Below, piece after piece: positions 1 to 7,840 of a DNA stretch of 64,000 bases (positions within the stretch are counted from its first letter, which is position 1; each line of letters starts with the position of its first letter). The notes below the pieces were generated by a model. That model saw only the letters and a list, made by a program, of their open reading frames with translations, made no database searches and had not been told where the DNA came from. The position numbers and the translations under genes were made by a program. Source of the stretch: Zoogloea sp. (lineage in GTDB: Bacteria; Pseudomonadota; Gammaproteobacteria; Burkholderiales; Rhodocyclaceae); assembly GCA_016703645.1 (NCBI GenBank), contig JADJBR010000009.1, positions 1,003,501 through 1,067,500 of the forward strand. The letters run 5' to 3'.

Positions 1-129
1 CAGAGGCACGAAGATCAGCATGTCCGACACCCCGAAGCTGCGCCCCCGAAAACGGAAATACGCCGCCACCGCACCGATGATGCTGATCAGCAGGAGGATG
101 ATTTCGATGACTTCGTGGAGGGCTTCCAT
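1..129 (-). CDS. Partial membrane protein, N-terminus only
   Basis: The reverse strand reads from an ATG at 129 into the window edge without a stop, giving 43 residues that begin MEALHEVIEIILLLISIIGA. One hydrophobic segment (about residues 8-25) is followed by a basic stretch (YFRFRGR) and a second hydrophobic start, so this is an inner-membrane protein with an acidic, possibly periplasmic N-terminus. The remainder lies outside the window and I do not recognise the family. GC is high, like the core genome, so it probably marks the left border of the accessory block. Confidence 0.5.
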   Translation of the reverse strand, partial: MEALHEVIEIILLLISIIGAVAAYFRFRGRSFGVSDMLIFVPL

Positions 130-540
130 GGGGGGCGGGGGATTGTTGGTGGGTTGGGTGAGTAGCGGGGGGATTGGGGTGGGGGTCGGTTGTTCGGCCT
201 AACCGGCCGTTGGCCAGTGATTTCGGGTCAGGCAGCAATCTGCCAGTTACCTGCCGTTCAATCGGGAAAGGCTACGAAAGGCTGCTTCCCTATCCGGCGA
301 ACTCACACTCTCGACCCTCAGCGGAACTTCGTCGCTTGTGGGCTGCGAAGACAGCTCACTGAGCGGAGCAGACGTTCATGGTACTTGCTGAACCTGAACT
401 ACTCGGCCAAACCCGACGCTGGATCATGAGAGCAACAAGTGCAGTAACGCATCGTATAACTGCCGCTCGCCATTCAGGGGGAAATTTAGGACTTGTGCAT
501 ACCCGTCGCCCGAAGCACCTCACGGAATATCCAAACAGTA
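130..540. other. Non-coding stretch downstream of the reverse transcriptase
   Basis: About 410 bases with no convincing gene; short open frames here lack ribosome sites and family features. It starts with a G/T-rich run, then contains several short inverted repeats (for example around 195-215 and 228-270) and a segment near 300-375 that looks like a worn intergenic repeat. Because it directly follows the stop of the reverse transcriptase gene on the same strand, it is a place to look for a structured RNA partner, but nothing here proves one. Confidence 0.35.
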
Positions 541-2145
541 TTACCCGGAAACATCACCAAGCAAATACTCCAAGTCAAAATCGTCGTCAGCGTCGCCATA
601 GTCCTGCCCGACGGCAGCCTTTACCGCTATAGGGAGCGTCGCGGTCTCGTCGTAAAACGACACGCCCGCCGCTTTCATCGGCCCGAAATGCTTGTTCGCC
701 GTCACAAAATCCTTTCCGCCCTTGTTGGGAAGCCAGCCTTTCACATTCGCCTCATAGGCAAGCAACCATTGCGCATCAGTCAGTTCTCCATCGTGCATCA
801 GCGCTTCAAGGGGACTGACATCCACCGGGCCAGTAACCAGTCCCTTGGCGATCAGATGCAAAGCACACAGCGCCACGCACGGGTCAGACGCCAGCAAAGA
901 CTTCTCGACCGCCTTTGCATCAAGCGTGCAGCCGAGGCAGATTGCGCCCCACAACGCCCAAACGACTTCGCTACCGTGATGCAGCGGCGCGTGATCCTCA
1001 ATCAACTGCTGCAAGGATTCGGTAATGCGGGCACGGTCAAGAGGCATGCGCAGGTGGTACTTGTACAACTCGCCAATCACCGCCGGCGCAGTACCGGGTT
1101 CAACGGAAAGGCATTGCAGGAGCAGGCTTTCGTAAAGACCCCAGTTCTTTTCGAAAATGGAGACCGAACGCATCCGCTGAACCGAATAGCGAAGAATGGC
1201 TTCTTCGCGCTGGTTTGCCGCCAGCTCGAAAGCCCGGCCGAAGTAACTCAACAGATCCCTCCGTTGTGCGCCGGACGTTGATGAACGAAACGCGAACAAA
1301 CGCAGATGTGGCACCCATGACGCCTCCAGTTCTGATGGCAACTCGACGATTCGCGTCTTCCGGGGATTTAGCTGAAGCTGAAGATCACCCACCAAGTGCT
1401 GCAACTGTCCCAGCGTTTCTTCAGCTTCGGCGACGGTTCGAAATCCGCAGGCGATGTCGTCGATGTAACGAAAGCCACGTTTCGTCATCGCCCCGGAAAG
1501 CTGAGCATCAACCGACGAAAGGATCGCTTCAGCGATAACGAGCGACGTATCCGGCCCGATGGGGATGCCGATCGTCTGCTTGTCCTGACCGTTCCGCATT
1601 GCCAAGTCGAGCACATTGCCAAGCAACGAGTAGTCATTCGGCTTCGACTTCGCAACTGCCTTGGTGTGCAGTGCCCACGGAATCGAATGGGTGTAGATGC
1701 TCGGATAGAACTGGCTGAGGTCAGTCGCCAGCAGGTAGCGTGATGCCGTGCGCGAGCGTGCCCGAGCAAGCGGAATGGCATCGAAGGGGCTGCGAGGGCT
1801 GATCGCACGAACGCCATGCTTCAGGTATCGCGGCGTTGTTAGCGAAATCGGCGATTGCTTACATACGGCCTTCAGCTCCGCCCAGCCCTCAGCAACCGCG
1901 CGCGCAACCTGATACTGATTGATCGGATTGGGGATCGTCAGCTTGCGCCGCAATGTCCCGGTGCGGGCCAGATTGTGGATGGCAGGCCGCGACACCAGAT
2001 TCCCCTTGCTCCCCTTCTTGGACGTATCCAAGTGAAAAGCCGCCGGGGCCGTTTCGGCGAAGATACCGAACAGATTGGTGTTGAACGGCGGCGGCAATTC
2101 CTTGGGAAAATACCCTCTCGCGAGAATTGTGGCTAGTGGCGACAT
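541..2145 (-). CDS. Reverse transcriptase of the UG/DRT/Abi-like defence group
   Basis: RNA-directed DNA polymerase of about 534 residues. Near the N-terminus is GYFPKELPPPF (about 11-21), a motif I associate with 'unknown group' and abortive-infection RTs. Motif A is ATDLSQFYPSI (catalytic Asp about 142), a GIPIGP segment sits near 193-198, and the catalytic box is YIDD (about 227-230), followed by LQLNPRKTRI. The C-terminal half (about 300-530) is helical and repeat-like, ending near GVSFYDE, which fits the alpha-repeat domain of class 1 UG RTs. There are no group II intron maturase features and no retron msr/msd was recognised. The gene is third in an operon, 31-40 bases after hsdM. An alternative TTG start lies at 2154. 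GC is lower than in the core genes, suggesting transfer. The exact UG/DRT type is undetermined. Confidence 0.85.
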   Translation of the reverse strand: MSPLATILARGYFPKELPPPFNTNLFGIFAETAPAAFHLDTSKKGSKGNLVSRPAIHNLARTGTLRRKLTIPNPINQYQVARAVAEGWAELKAVCKQSPISLTTPRYLKHGVRAISPRSPFDAIPLARARSRTASRYLLATDLSQFYPSIYTHSIPWALHTKAVAKSKPNDYSLLGNVLDLAMRNGQDKQTIGIPIGPDTSLVIAEAILSSVDAQLSGAMTKRGFRYIDDIACGFRTVAEAEETLGQLQHLVGDLQLQLNPRKTRIVELPSELEASWVPHLRLFAFRSSTSGAQRRDLLSYFGRAFELAANQREEAILRYSVQRMRSVSIFEKNWGLYESLLLQCLSVEPGTAPAVIGELYKYHLRMPLDRARITESLQQLIEDHAPLHHGSEVVWALWGAICLGCTLDAKAVEKSLLASDPCVALCALHLIAKGLVTGPVDVSPLEALMHDGELTDAQWLLAYEANVKGWLPNKGGKDFVTANKHFGPMKAAGVSFYDETATLPIAVKAAVGQDYGDADDDFDLEYLLGDVSG

Positions 2146-2185
2146 CTTGCTCAATTAGCCTGACTTCTATTCCAGTCAAAAAGCA

Positions 2186-4180
2186 TCACCCGACACTCCC
2201 ATTCGGCAGGAAGTCTTCAACGGTCGCCATGCCATCAACGGTCGCCATTAGGCTTTCGATATCGAGAGTAAGCTGGTCAGTAATTTTGCGAATGGCATAA
2301 TTTGCGGTCGCGGCGCGCAACGCCTTAGCTGCGAAAATCATCTCAGAGGCCGTAGTGCCAATGAAGTGCGATTCAACCACCTCGTCCTGCTTAGAACGAG
2401 AGGGTATCGGCACAAGGACGTCTCGGAGCTGATCGCTAGACATCGTTACGTTCGTCGCTCCGCACATTAGAGGCACGAGAAGCTCATTGCTCGTCGCGCT
2501 CAGAAATAGGTGCAAATACCTGGGATTTACAACTTTTTCATCATTCACGAACAACGCGCACATCGTGGTGGCAAGCGCAAATTTTCCCTCGTGAAAATGA
2601 AGCCGTTTGATATCAGCCTTGCCGTGCCCAGAGGACGAGACGAGAGGAATGCAAATTGCTCTTCCGTCGAAATCCCAGTGATCTGACGTTTTTTTCTCTT
2701 CTGCTGGAACAACAAGAGCAAAGTCTCCCGGTGGAGTAGCCATATTTGGTGACAAACCATCGCGAATCTCGCATATGTCCCCAATGCGCATTAACGGAAC
2801 ATCTGAGCGATGAATGACTCGGTTGGGCAAATCATGCCAACGGCCCAAGATGTGCGTGGCTCTGCCAAGCAAGAGGTCCGACTTCCTAATTGCGTAAGCT
2901 CGAACAGGGGCCCCGCCAGATTTCCATTCGCGTCGATCGACTACTGCCTGTCGAAACTGGGATATGAGGTCGGCCGCTTCCCCAATCTGTGACCCGGAAA
3001 CAGGTTCGCGGGTATCCGTCTGGGTGAAGCCATCATTTTCTATCTCAACAAACAGCACCGAATCTGCTTGGCGAGCCAGCTTACGGTCGACGATCAATAT
3101 ATGCGTTTTAACACTTGCATATGGCTTAAAAACACCGTGCGGAAGCGTGATGTCGGCCAACAAGAACCCATCTTCGAGTAACTTCCGCCTTAGTTGAACG
3201 TGTCCGCTTTGCTCAACAAAATGAATCCCCTCAGGGACGATAATTCCTGCTTTCCCGTTGGAACTAAGGTGATCCAAAAAGTAGTCAAGAAACAAGACCT
3301 CGCTTCGCTTTGACTGAACAGAAAAACGCTTATGTGGTGGCTTAACCCCGCCTTTCGGCGACATGAAGGGCGGGTTTGCAAGGATGACATCTGCGGTTTC
3401 ATTCCATCGCTCTTCGCTGGTCAAAGTGTCGTATTCGACAATGTGCGGGTCGGTGAAACCATGCAGATACATATTGACCAGCGACAGGCGCACCATGTCG
3501 GGCGAAATGTCATAGCCGCGAATGTTGGCAGCGAGGTTGGCACGCTCTTCCGGTGTAAGTTGGTCGCCTGGCCGCTCCTTGGTGTTCTGCTTGAGAATGT
3601 GCTTCCACGCCGAAATGAGAAAGCCCGCTGTGCCGCAGGCGGGGTCGAGCACGCTTTCGTTTTTCTTCGGGTCGATGACTTCGACCATGAAGTCGATGAT
3701 GTGGCGCGGCGTGCGGAACTGGCCGGCGTCACCCTGGCTGCCGAGCACCGAAAGCAGGTATTCGAAGGCATCGCCGAGGCGTTCGGAATGGTCGTAGGTG
3801 AAACTGTCGATTTCCTTGAGAAAGCTACGCAGGGTTTCCGGATCGCGATAAGGCAGATAGGCGTTCTTGAAGATGTCGCGGAACAGCGCCGGGATGCCGG
3901 GGTTCTCGTTCATCTTGCCGATGGCTTCGGAATACAGCGCTAGCACATCGAAGCCGCCCATGTTGGGCGCCATCAGTTTGGCCCAGCCGTATTTTGCATA
4001 GTTGCCGGCAAAGAAGCTGCGCGCGCCGCCCAGCTCTTCCGCTTCGGCGTCCATGTCGTCCATGAACTTGTAGATCAGTGCGATCGTAATCTGTTCGACC
4101 TGCGATTTTGGGTCGGGCACCTTGCCGACGAGGATGTCGCGGCAGGTGTCGATTCGGCGTTTGGTGTCAGCGTCGAGCAT
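2186..4180 (-). CDS. hsdM: Type I restriction-modification methylase with fused specificity-like domain (HsdM-S)
   Basis: Adenine-N6 methyltransferase of 664 residues. An N-terminal helical HsdM domain (about 1-160) precedes the SAM-binding motif I DPACGTAGF (179-187) and the catalytic NPPF (269-272). From about residue 450 the protein changes to a target-recognition-like domain (MRIGDICEIRDGLSP, ending in the DVLVPIPSRSKQDEVV type motif and a helix), as in HsdS half-subunits. HsdM alone is usually about 500 residues, so this is an M-S fusion with a single recognition domain, and no separate hsdS is present. It methylates the host sites that HsdR would otherwise attack. The start is ATG at 4180, 18 bases after the hsdR stop, so the three genes are probably co-transcribed. 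Confidence 0.88.
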   Translation of the reverse strand: MLDADTKRRIDTCRDILVGKVPDPKSQVEQITIALIYKFMDDMDAEAEELGGARSFFAGNYAKYGWAKLMAPNMGGFDVLALYSEAIGKMNENPGIPALFRDIFKNAYLPYRDPETLRSFLKEIDSFTYDHSERLGDAFEYLLSVLGSQGDAGQFRTPRHIIDFMVEVIDPKKNESVLDPACGTAGFLISAWKHILKQNTKERPGDQLTPEERANLAANIRGYDISPDMVRLSLVNMYLHGFTDPHIVEYDTLTSEERWNETADVILANPPFMSPKGGVKPPHKRFSVQSKRSEVLFLDYFLDHLSSNGKAGIIVPEGIHFVEQSGHVQLRRKLLEDGFLLADITLPHGVFKPYASVKTHILIVDRKLARQADSVLFVEIENDGFTQTDTREPVSGSQIGEAADLISQFRQAVVDRREWKSGGAPVRAYAIRKSDLLLGRATHILGRWHDLPNRVIHRSDVPLMRIGDICEIRDGLSPNMATPPGDFALVVPAEEKKTSDHWDFDGRAICIPLVSSSGHGKADIKRLHFHEGKFALATTMCALFVNDEKVVNPRYLHLFLSATSNELLVPLMCGATNVTMSSDQLRDVLVPIPSRSKQDEVVESHFIGTTASEMIFAAKALRAATANYAIRKITDQLTLDIESLMATVDGMATVEDFLPNGSVG

Positions 4181-4198
4181 TACTGGTGTTGCCTTCTA

Positions 4199-6748
4199 TT
4201 ACATGAATTGGTTGAGGGAGACGTAATCCTTCACGTACTCCGGGAGACGGTCGCGCCATTCCTTGGGTACGGCCTTGAAGTCGGCCATGCTGAAGGCGGG
4301 ATTGACGTTGAGTTCCGTGAGACGACGCTTTTCGATGATGTCGCGCAGGCTGCCATCGGTGGCGTAGGCCTTGAAGAAATACTTGAGGGCGACGATGGCG
4401 TCAGCGTGTTTAGCCAAGTCGTCTTCGGGCTGATCGAGCAGGAACTTTTGAAATTCGTCTTCGAGCAGTTCATCTTTCGATTTGAAGCCGGGAATCAGGC
4501 CGAAAACTTTTTCCAGAATCTCGCGCAGCGTCAGGCGGCGATCCACGCCGGCAGCGCGGCGCAGCTTGTCGAGGGTATAGAACTCGGCGGGCTTGTTGAG
4601 CAGATTAGCCGCAACATATTCAACCGCGTTGTCCCATTGCTCCTTATCAACGAAGGATTTCAAGGTGTCGTCGGCCTTCACGGTCTTCTCAAAGGTTTCG
4701 AAGAACATACGGTCGATCTTCATGCCCTGAGGGCCGACGGCTTCTTCCTTGACGTGTTGGATGTTGTCCGGACCACCGTGAATGTATTCGCCGGTTGGGC
4801 CGATGGTCGTACCGCCACCCTCTCCATTGCCGTCACCTGCGCTGGGCCGAGGCAGCTTCAGCACCTCGTCATAGTTGAATTTCTCTTCGAAGTATTCACA
4901 GTTGGCGAAGAAGTCGAAGAACTTGAATTGCGATTTCTCCTGCTTGCCGATCTGCTCCTTGAGCTGCTTGTCGAAAAGCTGTTCGAGGAAGCCGTGTTTA
5001 CGCGTCCCCCGCCCTTTGATCTGCACGAAGTCTGAGGGCGAGAACACCGGGCGCATCAGCGCGAGGTTGAGGATGTCCGGACAGTCGTAGCCGGTGGTCA
5101 TCATGCCGACGGTGACGCACACCCGCGCCTTGCTGGTCTTGTAGGCATCGAGGAAGTTGGCCGAGCCGAGCAGGTTGTTATTGGTGAAGTTGATGGTGTA
5201 TTGCTGCGCGTCGGAAATTTGCGAGGTGACCTGCACGGCAAAATCGGACTGATAGCGGCCCGGCCAGAGCGTGTCGGCCTGCTCGTTGAGAATCTGCGTC
5301 AGCTTGGCAGCGTGGTTCTGGCTGACGGCAAAGACGATGGCCTTGCCGTATTCGTGGCTGATCGGATCACGCAGGCCGTTGGCGAGGAAGATCTGGCAGA
5401 AGAGGCGGTTGGTGGCCTCGGAGAAGAACTTCTTCTCGAAATCTTTCTGGAAGAAGTTTTCATCCTCATTTCCCCCGTTTTCGTTGGAGCTTGCGACGGC
5501 ATAGCCCTTGTCCGATAGCAGTTGGGTGGTGATGCCGGTACGGGCATCGACCACCACGGGATTGATGAGGAATCCGTCGCGCACGCCATCGAGCAGCGAA
5601 TAGCGGAAAGTCGGTTGCCCGGATTCGCAGCCGAAGGTGCGGTAGGTGTCGAGCAGTAGCCGGCGCTCGGTTTCGCGCGGGTCTCGAGTACTAGGTTTAG
5701 TCGCGTCGTATTTCTTCAGGTAGTCGCGTGGCGTCGCGGTTAGGCCGAGCTTGTAGCCAACGAAATACTCGAACACGGCGCGGGCATTGCCGCCGATAGA
5801 GCGGTGTGCTTCGTCGGAAATCACCAGATCGAAATCGGTCGGCGAAAACAGGCGCTTGTACTTGTCGTTGAAAAGCAACGACTGCACGGTGGTCACGACA
5901 ATCTCGGCCTTGCGCCATTCGTCGCGGCGCTCCTTGTAAATCACCGAGGTGTAGTCGTTCTTGAGTTGCGCAATGAAGGCTTTGTTGGCCTGGTCTTCGA
6001 GTTCCAGCCGATCCACGAGGAAGAGCACGCGCCGGGCGTTACCGGTGCGCAGGAAGAGCTTGATGACGGCGGCCGCCGTCAGGGTCTTACCGGTGCCAGT
6101 CGCCATCTCGAATAGGAAACGGCTGCTACCTTCCGCCACGGCATCCTGGATCGCCTGCACGGCGCGCTTCTGATACCCGCGCAGGAAGCGCAGACGGTTC
6201 TTTTGGATGAAAGCGTCGCGTTCCGCTGGATTGTTCCAGCCAGCCTCGGCACTATAGGTCGGCATTTGCGTCAGCGCGATGTAGTCCTTGCCGACCGGCT
6301 CGGTAATCAGTCGCTGTGGGTTGGGCTGGAAGCGGTGATAGCCCTTGATGGAATCCGGCGTCGGAAAGCGCGTGATGATATGCGGGTTGCCCTGCTCGAG
6401 ATCCCAGAAGTAATTCAGGTTGCCGTTGGAGAGGACGACGAATCGGCAATTCTGCGATTTGGCGTACTTACGCGCCTGCTCCTTGCCGACCAGCGGGTTC
6501 TTGTCTTCCGACTTGGCTTCGAGCACAACCAGAGGGAACCCCGCCTCGTCCAGAAGTAGGAAGTCGATGAACCCGTTGCCGGTCTGTTCGAAATTTTCGC
6601 CGAGGGCGTCGATGGCTGCCTTGGTCAGCTTGACCTTGGGTTCGAGCACGATATTGGCTTTGCCACTGGCGTAGTCGAAGAAGCGCCAGCCGGACTCTTC
6701 GAGCAGCTTGTTGATCTTGATGCGGGCTTTTGCTTCTTTGGCAGCCAC
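4199..6748 (-). CDS. hsdR: Type I restriction endonuclease subunit R
   Basis: Motor and nuclease subunit of a type I restriction system, 849 residues. The N-terminal PD-(D/E)XK nuclease shows FIDFLLLDE and VLEAK (about 60-80). The SF2 translocase has Walker A MATGTGKT (about 215), DEAH in VISDEAHRS, GLTATPRD (motif III) and QIKGRGTRKHG (motif VI). The C-terminal about 150 residues form the helical coupling domain. The start is GTG at 6748 with a GGGAG ribosome site about 10 bases upstream (6757-6761 read on the minus strand). It is the first gene of the operon hsdR, hsdM-S, reverse transcriptase. GC is lower than in flanking genes. The reading frame is intact, so the enzyme is probably functional. 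Confidence 0.9.
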   Translation of the reverse strand: MAAKEAKARIKINKLLEESGWRFFDYASGKANIVLEPKVKLTKAAIDALGENFEQTGNGFIDFLLLDEAGFPLVVLEAKSEDKNPLVGKEQARKYAKSQNCRFVVLSNGNLNYFWDLEQGNPHIITRFPTPDSIKGYHRFQPNPQRLITEPVGKDYIALTQMPTYSAEAGWNNPAERDAFIQKNRLRFLRGYQKRAVQAIQDAVAEGSSRFLFEMATGTGKTLTAAAVIKLFLRTGNARRVLFLVDRLELEDQANKAFIAQLKNDYTSVIYKERRDEWRKAEIVVTTVQSLLFNDKYKRLFSPTDFDLVISDEAHRSIGGNARAVFEYFVGYKLGLTATPRDYLKKYDATKPSTRDPRETERRLLLDTYRTFGCESGQPTFRYSLLDGVRDGFLINPVVVDARTGITTQLLSDKGYAVASSNENGGNEDENFFQKDFEKKFFSEATNRLFCQIFLANGLRDPISHEYGKAIVFAVSQNHAAKLTQILNEQADTLWPGRYQSDFAVQVTSQISDAQQYTINFTNNNLLGSANFLDAYKTSKARVCVTVGMMTTGYDCPDILNLALMRPVFSPSDFVQIKGRGTRKHGFLEQLFDKQLKEQIGKQEKSQFKFFDFFANCEYFEEKFNYDEVLKLPRPSAGDGNGEGGGTTIGPTGEYIHGGPDNIQHVKEEAVGPQGMKIDRMFFETFEKTVKADDTLKSFVDKEQWDNAVEYVAANLLNKPAEFYTLDKLRRAAGVDRRLTLREILEKVFGLIPGFKSKDELLEDEFQKFLLDQPEDDLAKHADAIVALKYFFKAYATDGSLRDIIEKRRLTELNVNPAFSMADFKAVPKEWRDRLPEYVKDYVSLNQFM

Positions 6749-7085
6749 TGTGACACTCCCTGCAATGCAGCGGAATATTTTTATTGGGCGTGAGTTTAAA
6801 GCAACTCCTACTAGAAGCGATCATTTCAAATGGTTTCCCCATATCTGGCATAAACCCGAACAGAGAGTGGGCGGCAGGTTACTGTTGCATTGCGACCGAA
6901 TCGTGGGCAGAGAGACAAGGTCGGCTATGGCCGACAACTCGACATTCACACCGCCAACAATAAGCTCGACACCCCCCCGGCCGACCTTCCATTCCCCAGC
7001 CGAGTCACTGGCTCTGGCAGGTTTTCCCATCCCACAGTAGGCCCGACTCCCGCAGCGTGTGGTCGGCGGTCTTCTGCAACCGGAG
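6749..7085. other. Intergenic region upstream of hsdR, no gene seen
   Basis: This 340-base stretch must contain the promoter of the hsdR operon, and the AT-richest part is around 6770-6835. I cannot place a convincing -35/-10 pair. The open frames here are shadows or continuations of a decayed transposase and lack coding features. Confidence 0.4.
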
Positions 7086-7171
7086 TGCGCAATCTCGCGC
7101 TCCGAATCGCCCTGCCGCAAACGCATCAGAACCTGACGGTACGCGTAGATCTCGATACGCCTGCGGGCCAC
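7086..7171 (-). pseudogene. IstA stump, IS21-family transposase remnant
   Basis: From a GTG at 7171, preceded by a good AGGAGG ribosome site (7182-7187), the minus strand encodes MARRRIEIYAYRQVLMRLRQ followed by GDSEREIAHS. This is the typical N-terminus of IS21-family IstA proteins (YRQVL.RLR.GDS.R.IA). After about 28-30 codons the resemblance ends abruptly, while the frame wanders on to 6821 without recognisable domains. No istB and no second terminal repeat are seen, so this is the left-end fragment of a deleted element. It borders the restriction/RT operon and is a trace of the mobile history of this block. Confidence 0.7.
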
Positions 7172-7400
7172 CGGCTTCCTCCTGCTAAACCGGGGAAGGT
7201 AGCGGTGGACCGCTTAAGGTCGAGACTTCCGTCAGAGAGAAACGGGTGCCATTGCTGGTTAGCTGGCGGTAATAGCCGACAAAGCGCCGTAGAACGTGGT
7301 GACGGGATTCCGATGGGCGTCCGTGTATCGACGAGCGCAAAGATCTGGCTTGAGGCGGTCTGGTTTGCCATTGCGTTTGCCTCCGGCTACTGTGGGTCAA

Positions 7401-7436
7401 AGCTATGCAGACTATGACAAAGGAGACTGGAAATGA
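7401..7436 (+). pseudogene. Remnant of a HigB-type toxin C-terminus
   Basis: In frame up to a TGA at 7434-7436 the plus strand reads SYADYDKGDWK. HigB-family toxins commonly end in THxEYDKxxWK-like sequence, and the TGA overlaps the ATG of the HigA gene as ATGA, the usual toxin-antitoxin coupling. Upstream of about 7400 the same frame shows no toxin sequence. I infer that a higB gene stood here and was deleted apart from its last 10-12 codons. The match is short, so this is tentative. Confidence 0.4.
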
Positions 7437-7840
7437 GCATTGTCGACATCCTGGCTCCCTGGACTGCGGTGAACGACGCGCTGGGCTTGGCTACCCCGAT
7501 CCGCGACGCGGCGCACCATGCCGAGATGCTGGCCTTTGTGGATGAAGCCTTCGAGCGCTTTGGGGGTGACGATGCCCACCCGATCTTCGGGCTGGTATCG
7601 ATTGTGGCTGACCGTATCCGCGAGTATGAGGCGAGGGTGCATCCGTGGCCCGAGCTTCCGCCACATGAGTTGCTGCGCGCACTGATGGTGGAACACGACA
7701 TCAAGCAGAGTGAGTTGCCGGAGGTGGGGCCGCAGCCGGTGGTGTCGGAGGTGCTCGCTGGCAAGCGGGCGTTGAACCTTCGGCAGGTCGCCGCGCTGGC
7801 GGCACGCTTTCATGTGCCGATGGAGGTTTTCACCGTGTAA
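7433..7840 (+). CDS. higA: HigA-like antitoxin / HTH regulator
   Basis: 135-residue protein with an acidic N-terminal region and a C-terminal helix-turn-helix (about 85-132: LLRALMVEHDIKQSELPEVG, then VVSEVLAGKRALNLRQVAALAARF). The arrangement and length match the long E. coli-type HigA, which neutralises the HigB mRNA interferase and represses its own operon. The AAGGAGACTGG ribosome site lies just upstream (7420-7430). Only a C-terminal scrap of a toxin precedes it, so it may be an orphan antitoxin able to counter incoming HigB or simply a leftover repressor. Confidence 0.75.
   Translation: MSIVDILAPWTAVNDALGLATPIRDAAHHAEMLAFVDEAFERFGGDDAHPIFGLVSIVADRIREYEARVHPWPELPPHELLRALMVEHDIKQSELPEVGPQPVVSEVLAGKRALNLRQVAALAARFHVPMEVFTV

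Follow-up and report, generated by a model that had tools for sequence, protein, structure and literature searches.

A DRT6-type reverse transcriptase as the terminal, probably detachable gene of a type I restriction-modification operon in Zoogloea

Background

Why should a reverse transcriptase (RT) related to anti-phage enzymes be encoded as the third gene of a type I restriction-modification (RM) operon, and does it belong to the restriction system or merely follow it? The question is posed by a 64,000-nucleotide stretch of DNA from Zoogloea sp. (GCA_016703645.1, contig JADJBR010000009.1), the whole of which we call the window, where hsdR, a fused hsdMS gene and an RT gene lie as three uninterrupted open reading frames (ORFs), all on the minus strand of a tract of low GC content. 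A first-pass annotation of this DNA had proposed that the restriction genes and the RT are transferred and expressed together, either as one combined system or as a stacked pair. The comparisons presented here favour a stacked, detachable pair over a combined system, because the RT frame is intact without the hsd genes in two relatives and DRT6-type RTs also stand behind type IIG RM and Gabija genes. The locus is probably a two-layer anti-phage operon, with type I RM acting first and a DRT6-type Class 1 RT serving as a detachable 3' module.

Abortive-infection genes linked to RM systems are already known. PrrC and PARIS are presented as guardians in PMC12707154; a table in PMC3710099 places AbiA, which combines an RT and a HEPN domain, in an operon with RM, and AbiK is apparently part of an RM system by its neighbourhood (PMC8934634). 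The window shares with PrrC/EcoPrrI, AbiA and AbiK the placement of such a gene inside or beside an RM operon; it differs in that its RT is of the DRT6 family and has relatives that survive without the RM enzyme. PMC13213688 describes DRT4 and DRT6 as single-gene systems. It reports that DRT4 makes untemplated, probably protein-primed single-stranded DNA (ssDNA), that the phage DNA-binding protein ORF55, a trigger of DRT4, activates DRT6 too, and that the product chemistry of DRT6 is less resolved. DRT4 or DRT6 in a type I operon, and the deletion history set out below, appear undescribed in the literature searched, which yielded no account of either and did not cover the main survey of UG/Abi RTs, where an earlier description is possible; term searches within PMC12632851, PMC13275509 and PMC13174585 turned up no passage on RM neighbours.

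An intact type I operon closed by a DRT6-type RT

The RT gene (541..2145, minus strand; 537 residues) is the third and last of the unit. Its product exceeds the Pfam cut-off for RVT_1, carries the motifs DLSQFY and YIDD (the latter at 1456..1467, minus strand; residues 227-230 from the ATG), and finds its best PADLOC match in Drt6 (E = 2.2e-168, 559 bits; residues 7-509 on model positions 4-485 of 511). PADLOC models of Drt4 score 545 bits (PDLC02177), 529 bits and, in three further cases, 206-242 bits (PDLC03752, 242), and the NCBIfam Drt4 equivalog gives 228 bits, under its cut-off of 450. A profile built from the window RT and five relatives matched the solved chain 9wy8_A over positions 4-504 of 535 (E = 9e-88), and solved chains labelled UG15 more weakly; in the six aligned RTs, D142-Y147 and Y227-D230 are invariant. 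By these matches the window RT is a predicted DRT6-type defence enzyme lying near DRT4. The annotation had rightly recognised a UG/DRT-type RT with a YIDD motif; the Drt6 match shows the RT to be of a known type. We take DRT6 to be the same as UG12. The C-terminal half, for which the annotation proposed helical repeats, is covered by the similarity to 9wy8_A; an AlphaFold model from six sequences (mean predicted local distance difference test score, pLDDT, 38.6; residues 334-445 mostly above 50) was too poor for use.

Upstream lie hsdR (4199..6748, minus strand; 849 residues, GTG start) and hsdMS (2186..4180, minus strand; 664 residues), the latter encoding an N6-adenine methyltransferase fused to a specificity subunit. 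HsdR exceeds the Pfam cut-offs for the HSDR_N nuclease domain and the ResIII motor, carries GTGKT and DEAH motifs and is recognised by the PADLOC REase_I model and by its relatives; HsdMS does so for N6_Mtase and one Methylase_S stretch, with DPACGTAGF and NPPF motifs in the HsdM part. All three functions of a type I system, HsdR, HsdM and HsdS, are thus encoded and intact by domains and motifs, as in systems with an EcoAI/FtnUII-like hsdR. Unlike EcoAI, the window has HsdM and HsdS fused, a single recognised target domain and a third gene, and it scores 225 bits with the NCBIfam EcoAI equivalog, under the cut-off of 550. The genes are separated by 18 bases (hsdR-hsdMS) and by 40 or 31 bases (hsdMS-RT, for an ATG start at 2145 or a TTG at 2154), in agreement with the spacing and order first described; the ATG is the likelier start because relatives begin at the equivalent residue (MTSPL versus MSPL). 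The low GC content noted earlier also stands: 0.576 for the RT, 0.574 for hsdR, 0.548 for the M part and 0.519 for the S part, against 0.665 for the window. Scans for promoters and terminators gave counts at or under shuffled expectation and were uninformative.

The conserved structured RNA that marks DRT systems with a companion non-coding RNA was not found beside the RT. An Rfam scan of window positions 1-7500 gave no match up to E = 1, which lends no support to a structured RNA at 130-540, and blastn comparison of non-coding flanks gave no candidate by conservation: between the window and a Dechloromonas locus, L001, similarity 3' of the RT extends over no more than about 27 bases, and longer stretches shared among close relatives are adjoining coding genes.

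Evidence for joint inheritance of the hsd genes and the RT

A scan of genome contigs yielded, besides the window, eight loci at 81% RT identity or more. They become seven once L007 and L008 are merged, these being contig ends of one metagenome-assembled genome (MAG) between which a single RT is apparently split at about residue 315; a short inverted repeat common to the end of L007 and the start of L008 is of the sort left behind by insertion of an element. In L001, a Dechloromonas MAG, the order is hsdR, hsdMS (828 residues), a 240-residue HEPN-like gene and the RT. L002, also Dechloromonas, has the same order, frameshifted throughout, RT included. In both, the end of the HEPN-like gene and the start of the RT share the bases ATGA.

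Between the window and L001, synonymous divergence (dS) is similar along the operon (hsdR 0.85, M part 0.88 over 398 aligned codons, RT 0.75), as is third-position identity (0.64, 0.62 and 0.66), and the RT has a ratio of nonsynonymous divergence (dN) to dS of about 0.07. By blastn, the unit common to both begins with a leader of about 188 bases before hsdR (6749..6935, minus strand; 80% identity) and ends about 27 bases past the RT stop (514..540, minus strand); upstream of those 188 bases the two gave no blastn match, and the L001 contig extends only 230 bases beyond the RT. The S half behaves differently, the window's sharing 41% identity with its counterpart in an E. coli plasmid operon (L065) and 21% with the one in L001, so that S, and with it the HEPN-like gene, has probably been exchanged between operon versions. 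Taken together, these comparisons suggest that the hsd genes and the RT were inherited together and that their linkage goes beyond chance, in keeping with the joint transfer first proposed.

The HEPN assignment of the 240-residue protein is weak. L001 and L002 share a motif, RNRIAH, which we take to be of the R-x4-H kind; Pfam HEPN models match under cut-off, each in two of four members (best E = 0.0048), a PDB profile search gave one chance-level match (E = 0.64), and the AlphaFold model, from a single sequence (mean pLDDT 40.2), was too poor for use. A frame starting like a DUF3800 protein (by eye) lies at 11629-11827 of L001, 32 bases after the RT stop, where the contig ends; in a more distant locus, L040, a DUF3800 protein is also placed between hsdS and RT.

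Apparent deletion scars and the ancestry of the linkage

Two of the close relatives, L004 and L006, have no hsd genes by profile search and would pass for solo RTs. In L004, however, the frame that ends in an ATGA overlap with the RT consists of hsdR residues 1 to about 37 followed by the C-terminal 14 residues of the HEPN-like protein, and the joint is equally visible in DNA by blastn, 110 bases matching the start of L001 hsdR and the next 76 its HEPN-RT junction. In L006, a 20-codon frame opens with the first six hsdR residues, closes like the HEPN-like protein and runs by ATGA onto the RT. Despite the loss of hsdMS and nearly all of hsdR, both RT frames are intact. The scars differ in their end points, and therefore point to two separate internal deletions of hsdR-hsdMS-HEPN-RT operons; these solo RTs look like deletion derivatives of hsd-linked loci. 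The two also share a convergent gene pair 3' of the RT (L004:11774-13485; L006:11608-13319), encoding a PIN-like protein (196 residues, by eye) and an XRE-like protein (374 residues), although their MAGs differ (Nitrosomonadales; Sulfuricella), and a larger unit may travel with the solo RT.

In a tree of 24 RTs, which left out L007 (321 residues) and L041 (damaged) as too short and L037 and L056 as duplicates of L006 and the window, L004 grouped with L003 and L005 (93/93), apart from the window, L001, L002 and L006. Since a scarred locus thus falls in the other subclade, hsd linkage is most simply ancestral to this close RT clade, and the RT seems to outlive the restriction genes. The gene order, whose restriction to one locus the annotation would have read as chance neighbourhood, therefore recurs with one extra gene in L001, damaged in L002, and as apparent deletion derivatives in L004 and L006.

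The remaining close relatives have other partners. In L007 the RT follows genes for a PLD/SNF2 helicase, a REase_MTase_IIG protein, a DprA-like protein and a Schlafen-AlbA protein. L003, near a contig end, has a DprA-like gene (84% identical to that of L007) directly before the RT, itself preceded by a frame like the end of the L007 type IIG protein (27%, E = 1e-10). In L005 the RT follows a gene resembling PII (by eye), and tblastn with the window hsd proteins found no match in the 8.2 kb examined.

A variable third slot behind hsdR-hsdMS

Viewed from the side of hsdR, the RT appears as one of several occupants of a variable position. The window type of hsdR was found in nine of 399 genomes of the window's order, the window included; we read the other eight loci and one of 56 plasmid records with a related hsdR. 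That record, L065 (E. coli conjugative plasmid NZ_CP034592), resembles the window in hsdR (74% identity), hsdMS (58%) and gene order, and differs in its third gene, annotated as a TrlF ATPase rather than an RT; the operon (L065:6992-14540) lies between finO and repA. L068 likewise has a TrlF-kind gene after hsdMS (PADLOC Ppl, E = 4e-138), followed by a HEC-05 gene. In L067 the position is taken by a UG5 RT-nitrilase (E = 7e-284) and in L069 by the HEPN-like gene, the hsdR of L069 having an internal stop. L066 and L070 show no co-directional gene of at least 90 residues close after hsdMS, L071 stops at a contig edge, and L072 and L073 are fragments. Judged by these matches, the 3' slot of the hsdR-hsdMS family holds differing predicted defence genes, among them DRT6, HEPN-like, UG5 RT-nitrilase and TrlF/Ppl. 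A second insertion point is seen in L066, where a PDC-M05 candidate defence pair, a nucleotidyltransferase and its partner (L066:6647-7661), lies between hsdR and hsdMS.

The wider RT family and its partners

PADLOC Drt6 matches occur in 14 of 399 genomes of the order (E to 1e-40) and, with E to 1e-80, in four of 369 genomes of the class and four of 398 of the phylum, each count including the window's genome. Of the 20 other loci, 19 were sampled, G259 (a 3.6-kb contig) being dropped. In six of the 19 (L040, L043, L046, L048, L051, L054) the RT is flanked by hsdM and hsdR, all on one strand, with an HsdS gene confirmed by Pfam in five, L054 not being in that scan; six is a minimum because L042 and L047 show little upstream DNA. 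One sampled RT (L041) is damaged, and L037 is the L006 locus itself. RT class was assigned in ten of the 19, seven being DRT4-type (five of them in type I operons) and L054 AbiP2; in L038 and L045, where the RTs stand alone, the best model is a Drt4 and the next Drt6. TIR-domain genes follow the DRT4-type RT and precede hsdR inside two type I operons (L046:12942-14012; L048:13307-14116).

The control set comprised the surroundings of 19 CBASS cyclase (SMODS) genes from the order, some of them likewise truncated at contig ends: none has the gene inside, and one has it near, hsdM and hsdR on one strand. The excess around RTs has low one-sided Fisher p values (inside, 6/19 versus 0/19, p = 0.0098; near, 6/19 versus 1/19, p = 0.045; order alone, 3/12 versus 0/19, p = 0.049, or 0.020 with the window added), though the hsd profiles were trained on RT loci and may favour them, and a single control family is few.

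Mobile elements extend the range of partners. Seven plasmid records carry an RT about 28% identical to that of the window, and in the four of them that we read (Rhizobium lentis, Agrobacterium tumefaciens, Sinorhizobium meliloti, Agrobacterium fabrum) an AAA or TOPRIM gene and an ATP-dependent helicase gene are followed, 15 bases on, by the RT. The A. tumefaciens record matches GajA (E = 1e-183), GajB (E = 1e-175) and Drt6 (E = 2e-155); in R. lentis an IS4 transposase splits the first of these genes, whose TOPRIM part matches GajA. The GajA-GajB identity thus rests on annotation in four records and on models in one, with GajA alone in a second. With this gene order, DRT6 takes the third place behind a second kind of defence system as well. 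A plasmid search with the DRT4-type RT of L051 (E = 1e-40) gave no match, and no relative of the window RT was found among phage records (E = 1e-30) or viral contigs. PADLOC already includes models of RT-associated helicases and nitrilases.

Proposed mechanism and competing explanations

We consider the following the most probable course of events. The three genes would be co-transcribed from the hsdR leader. HsdR and the fused HsdM-HsdS would restrict unmodified incoming DNA as the first layer, and the RT would act on phage that escaped restriction, with no need of a physical partnership with the RM enzyme. As in DRT4, it would produce untemplated, probably protein-primed ssDNA, which a phage product, after the manner of ORF55 in DRT4, would allow to accumulate, halting the infected cell. 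RT loci survive hsd loss and are found again beside unrelated partners, which makes phage itself a likelier trigger of the RT than the RM enzyme. The RT is probably autonomous and its response abortive.

Several observations weigh against this picture. The DRT4 mechanism reaches the window RT through family resemblance only, and PMC13213688 calls the DRT6 product less resolved. Beyond the window, hsdR-hsdMS-RT is seen only in L001 and L002, the latter frameshifted throughout, and among the nine loci with the window type of hsdR an RT follows hsdMS in two (the window, and L067 with another RT type), three of the nine being cut or fragmentary. The M part has changed faster as a protein than its neighbours (window-L001 dN 0.135, versus 0.058 for hsdR and 0.055 for the RT), and the L006 scar, resting on six codons and a short tail, is less sure than that of L004. 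On the whole RT tree the type I label shows no clustering beyond that of shuffled labels (as low in 80 of 500), a pattern compatible with repeated gain and loss, though no proof of it.

A broader scheme, unlikely in our estimation yet worth stating, holds that DNA-cutting operons (type I RM, type IIG RM, Gabija) possess a recurrent backup slot through which Class 1 RTs and other abortive effectors are swapped, and that in the window RM and RT are coupled, for example with the DNA made by the RT being activated or shielded by restriction fragments or by a phage protein that inhibits the cutting enzyme.

Somewhat less probable still is a guardian of the PrrC kind, in which the RT would be silenced by, or would sense, the type I enzyme and fire upon a phage restriction inhibitor, the whole forming one obligate system. 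PrrC itself resides within a type IC locus and is activated by inhibition of EcoPrrI (PMC12707154), and RTs of this family do recur inside type I operons. Yet in L004 and L006 the RT frame is intact without hsdMS and nearly all of hsdR, L005 has its RT without a window-hsd match in the stretch examined, and the RTs placed behind a type IIG operon (L007, probably L003) and behind Gabija would be left unexplained by a sensor specific to type I enzymes.

We give a low probability to chance neighbourhood, that is, to an RT that landed beside an hsd operon because defence genes cluster in islands. Such clustering is visible here: about 1.15 kb past the RT, just to the left of the window start on the same contig (L056:4645-6392), lie genes for a 215-residue protein and a 371-residue macrodomain protein, which we take to be DarT-like and DarG-like, and with this pair the operon seems to sit in a small defence island. 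One of the 19 SMODS controls also has hsdM and hsdR near on one strand, and for 13 of the 19 sampled RT loci no type I operon was seen around the RT (one, L037, being the scarred L006 locus). Against this, the L001 gene order, the similar dS, the shared unit limits and two scars with differing end points tie the RT clade to hsdR, and L001 and L004 largely contradict an accidental pairing.

The weakest alternative, marginally less credible again, gives the RT another job: it might copy an operon RNA into cDNA, or serve in repair or priming where restriction has broken the DNA. This reading can appeal to the less resolved chemistry of DRT6 (PMC13213688), but it is countered by the RT's resemblance, over nearly its full length, to models of DRT6/DRT4 and to solved chains, of which one set is labelled UG15, and by the want of a non-coding RNA candidate from Rfam or from non-coding flank conservation.

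Conclusions

If the two-layer reading is right, the repeated placement of DNA-making RTs beside DNA-cutting enzymes may be a rule, one that is open to test. The deletion scars would serve as natural experiments in which the RT seems to pay its way once the RM enzyme is gone, and the variable 3' slot of the hsdR-hsdMS family would offer a practical hunting ground for new abortive effectors.

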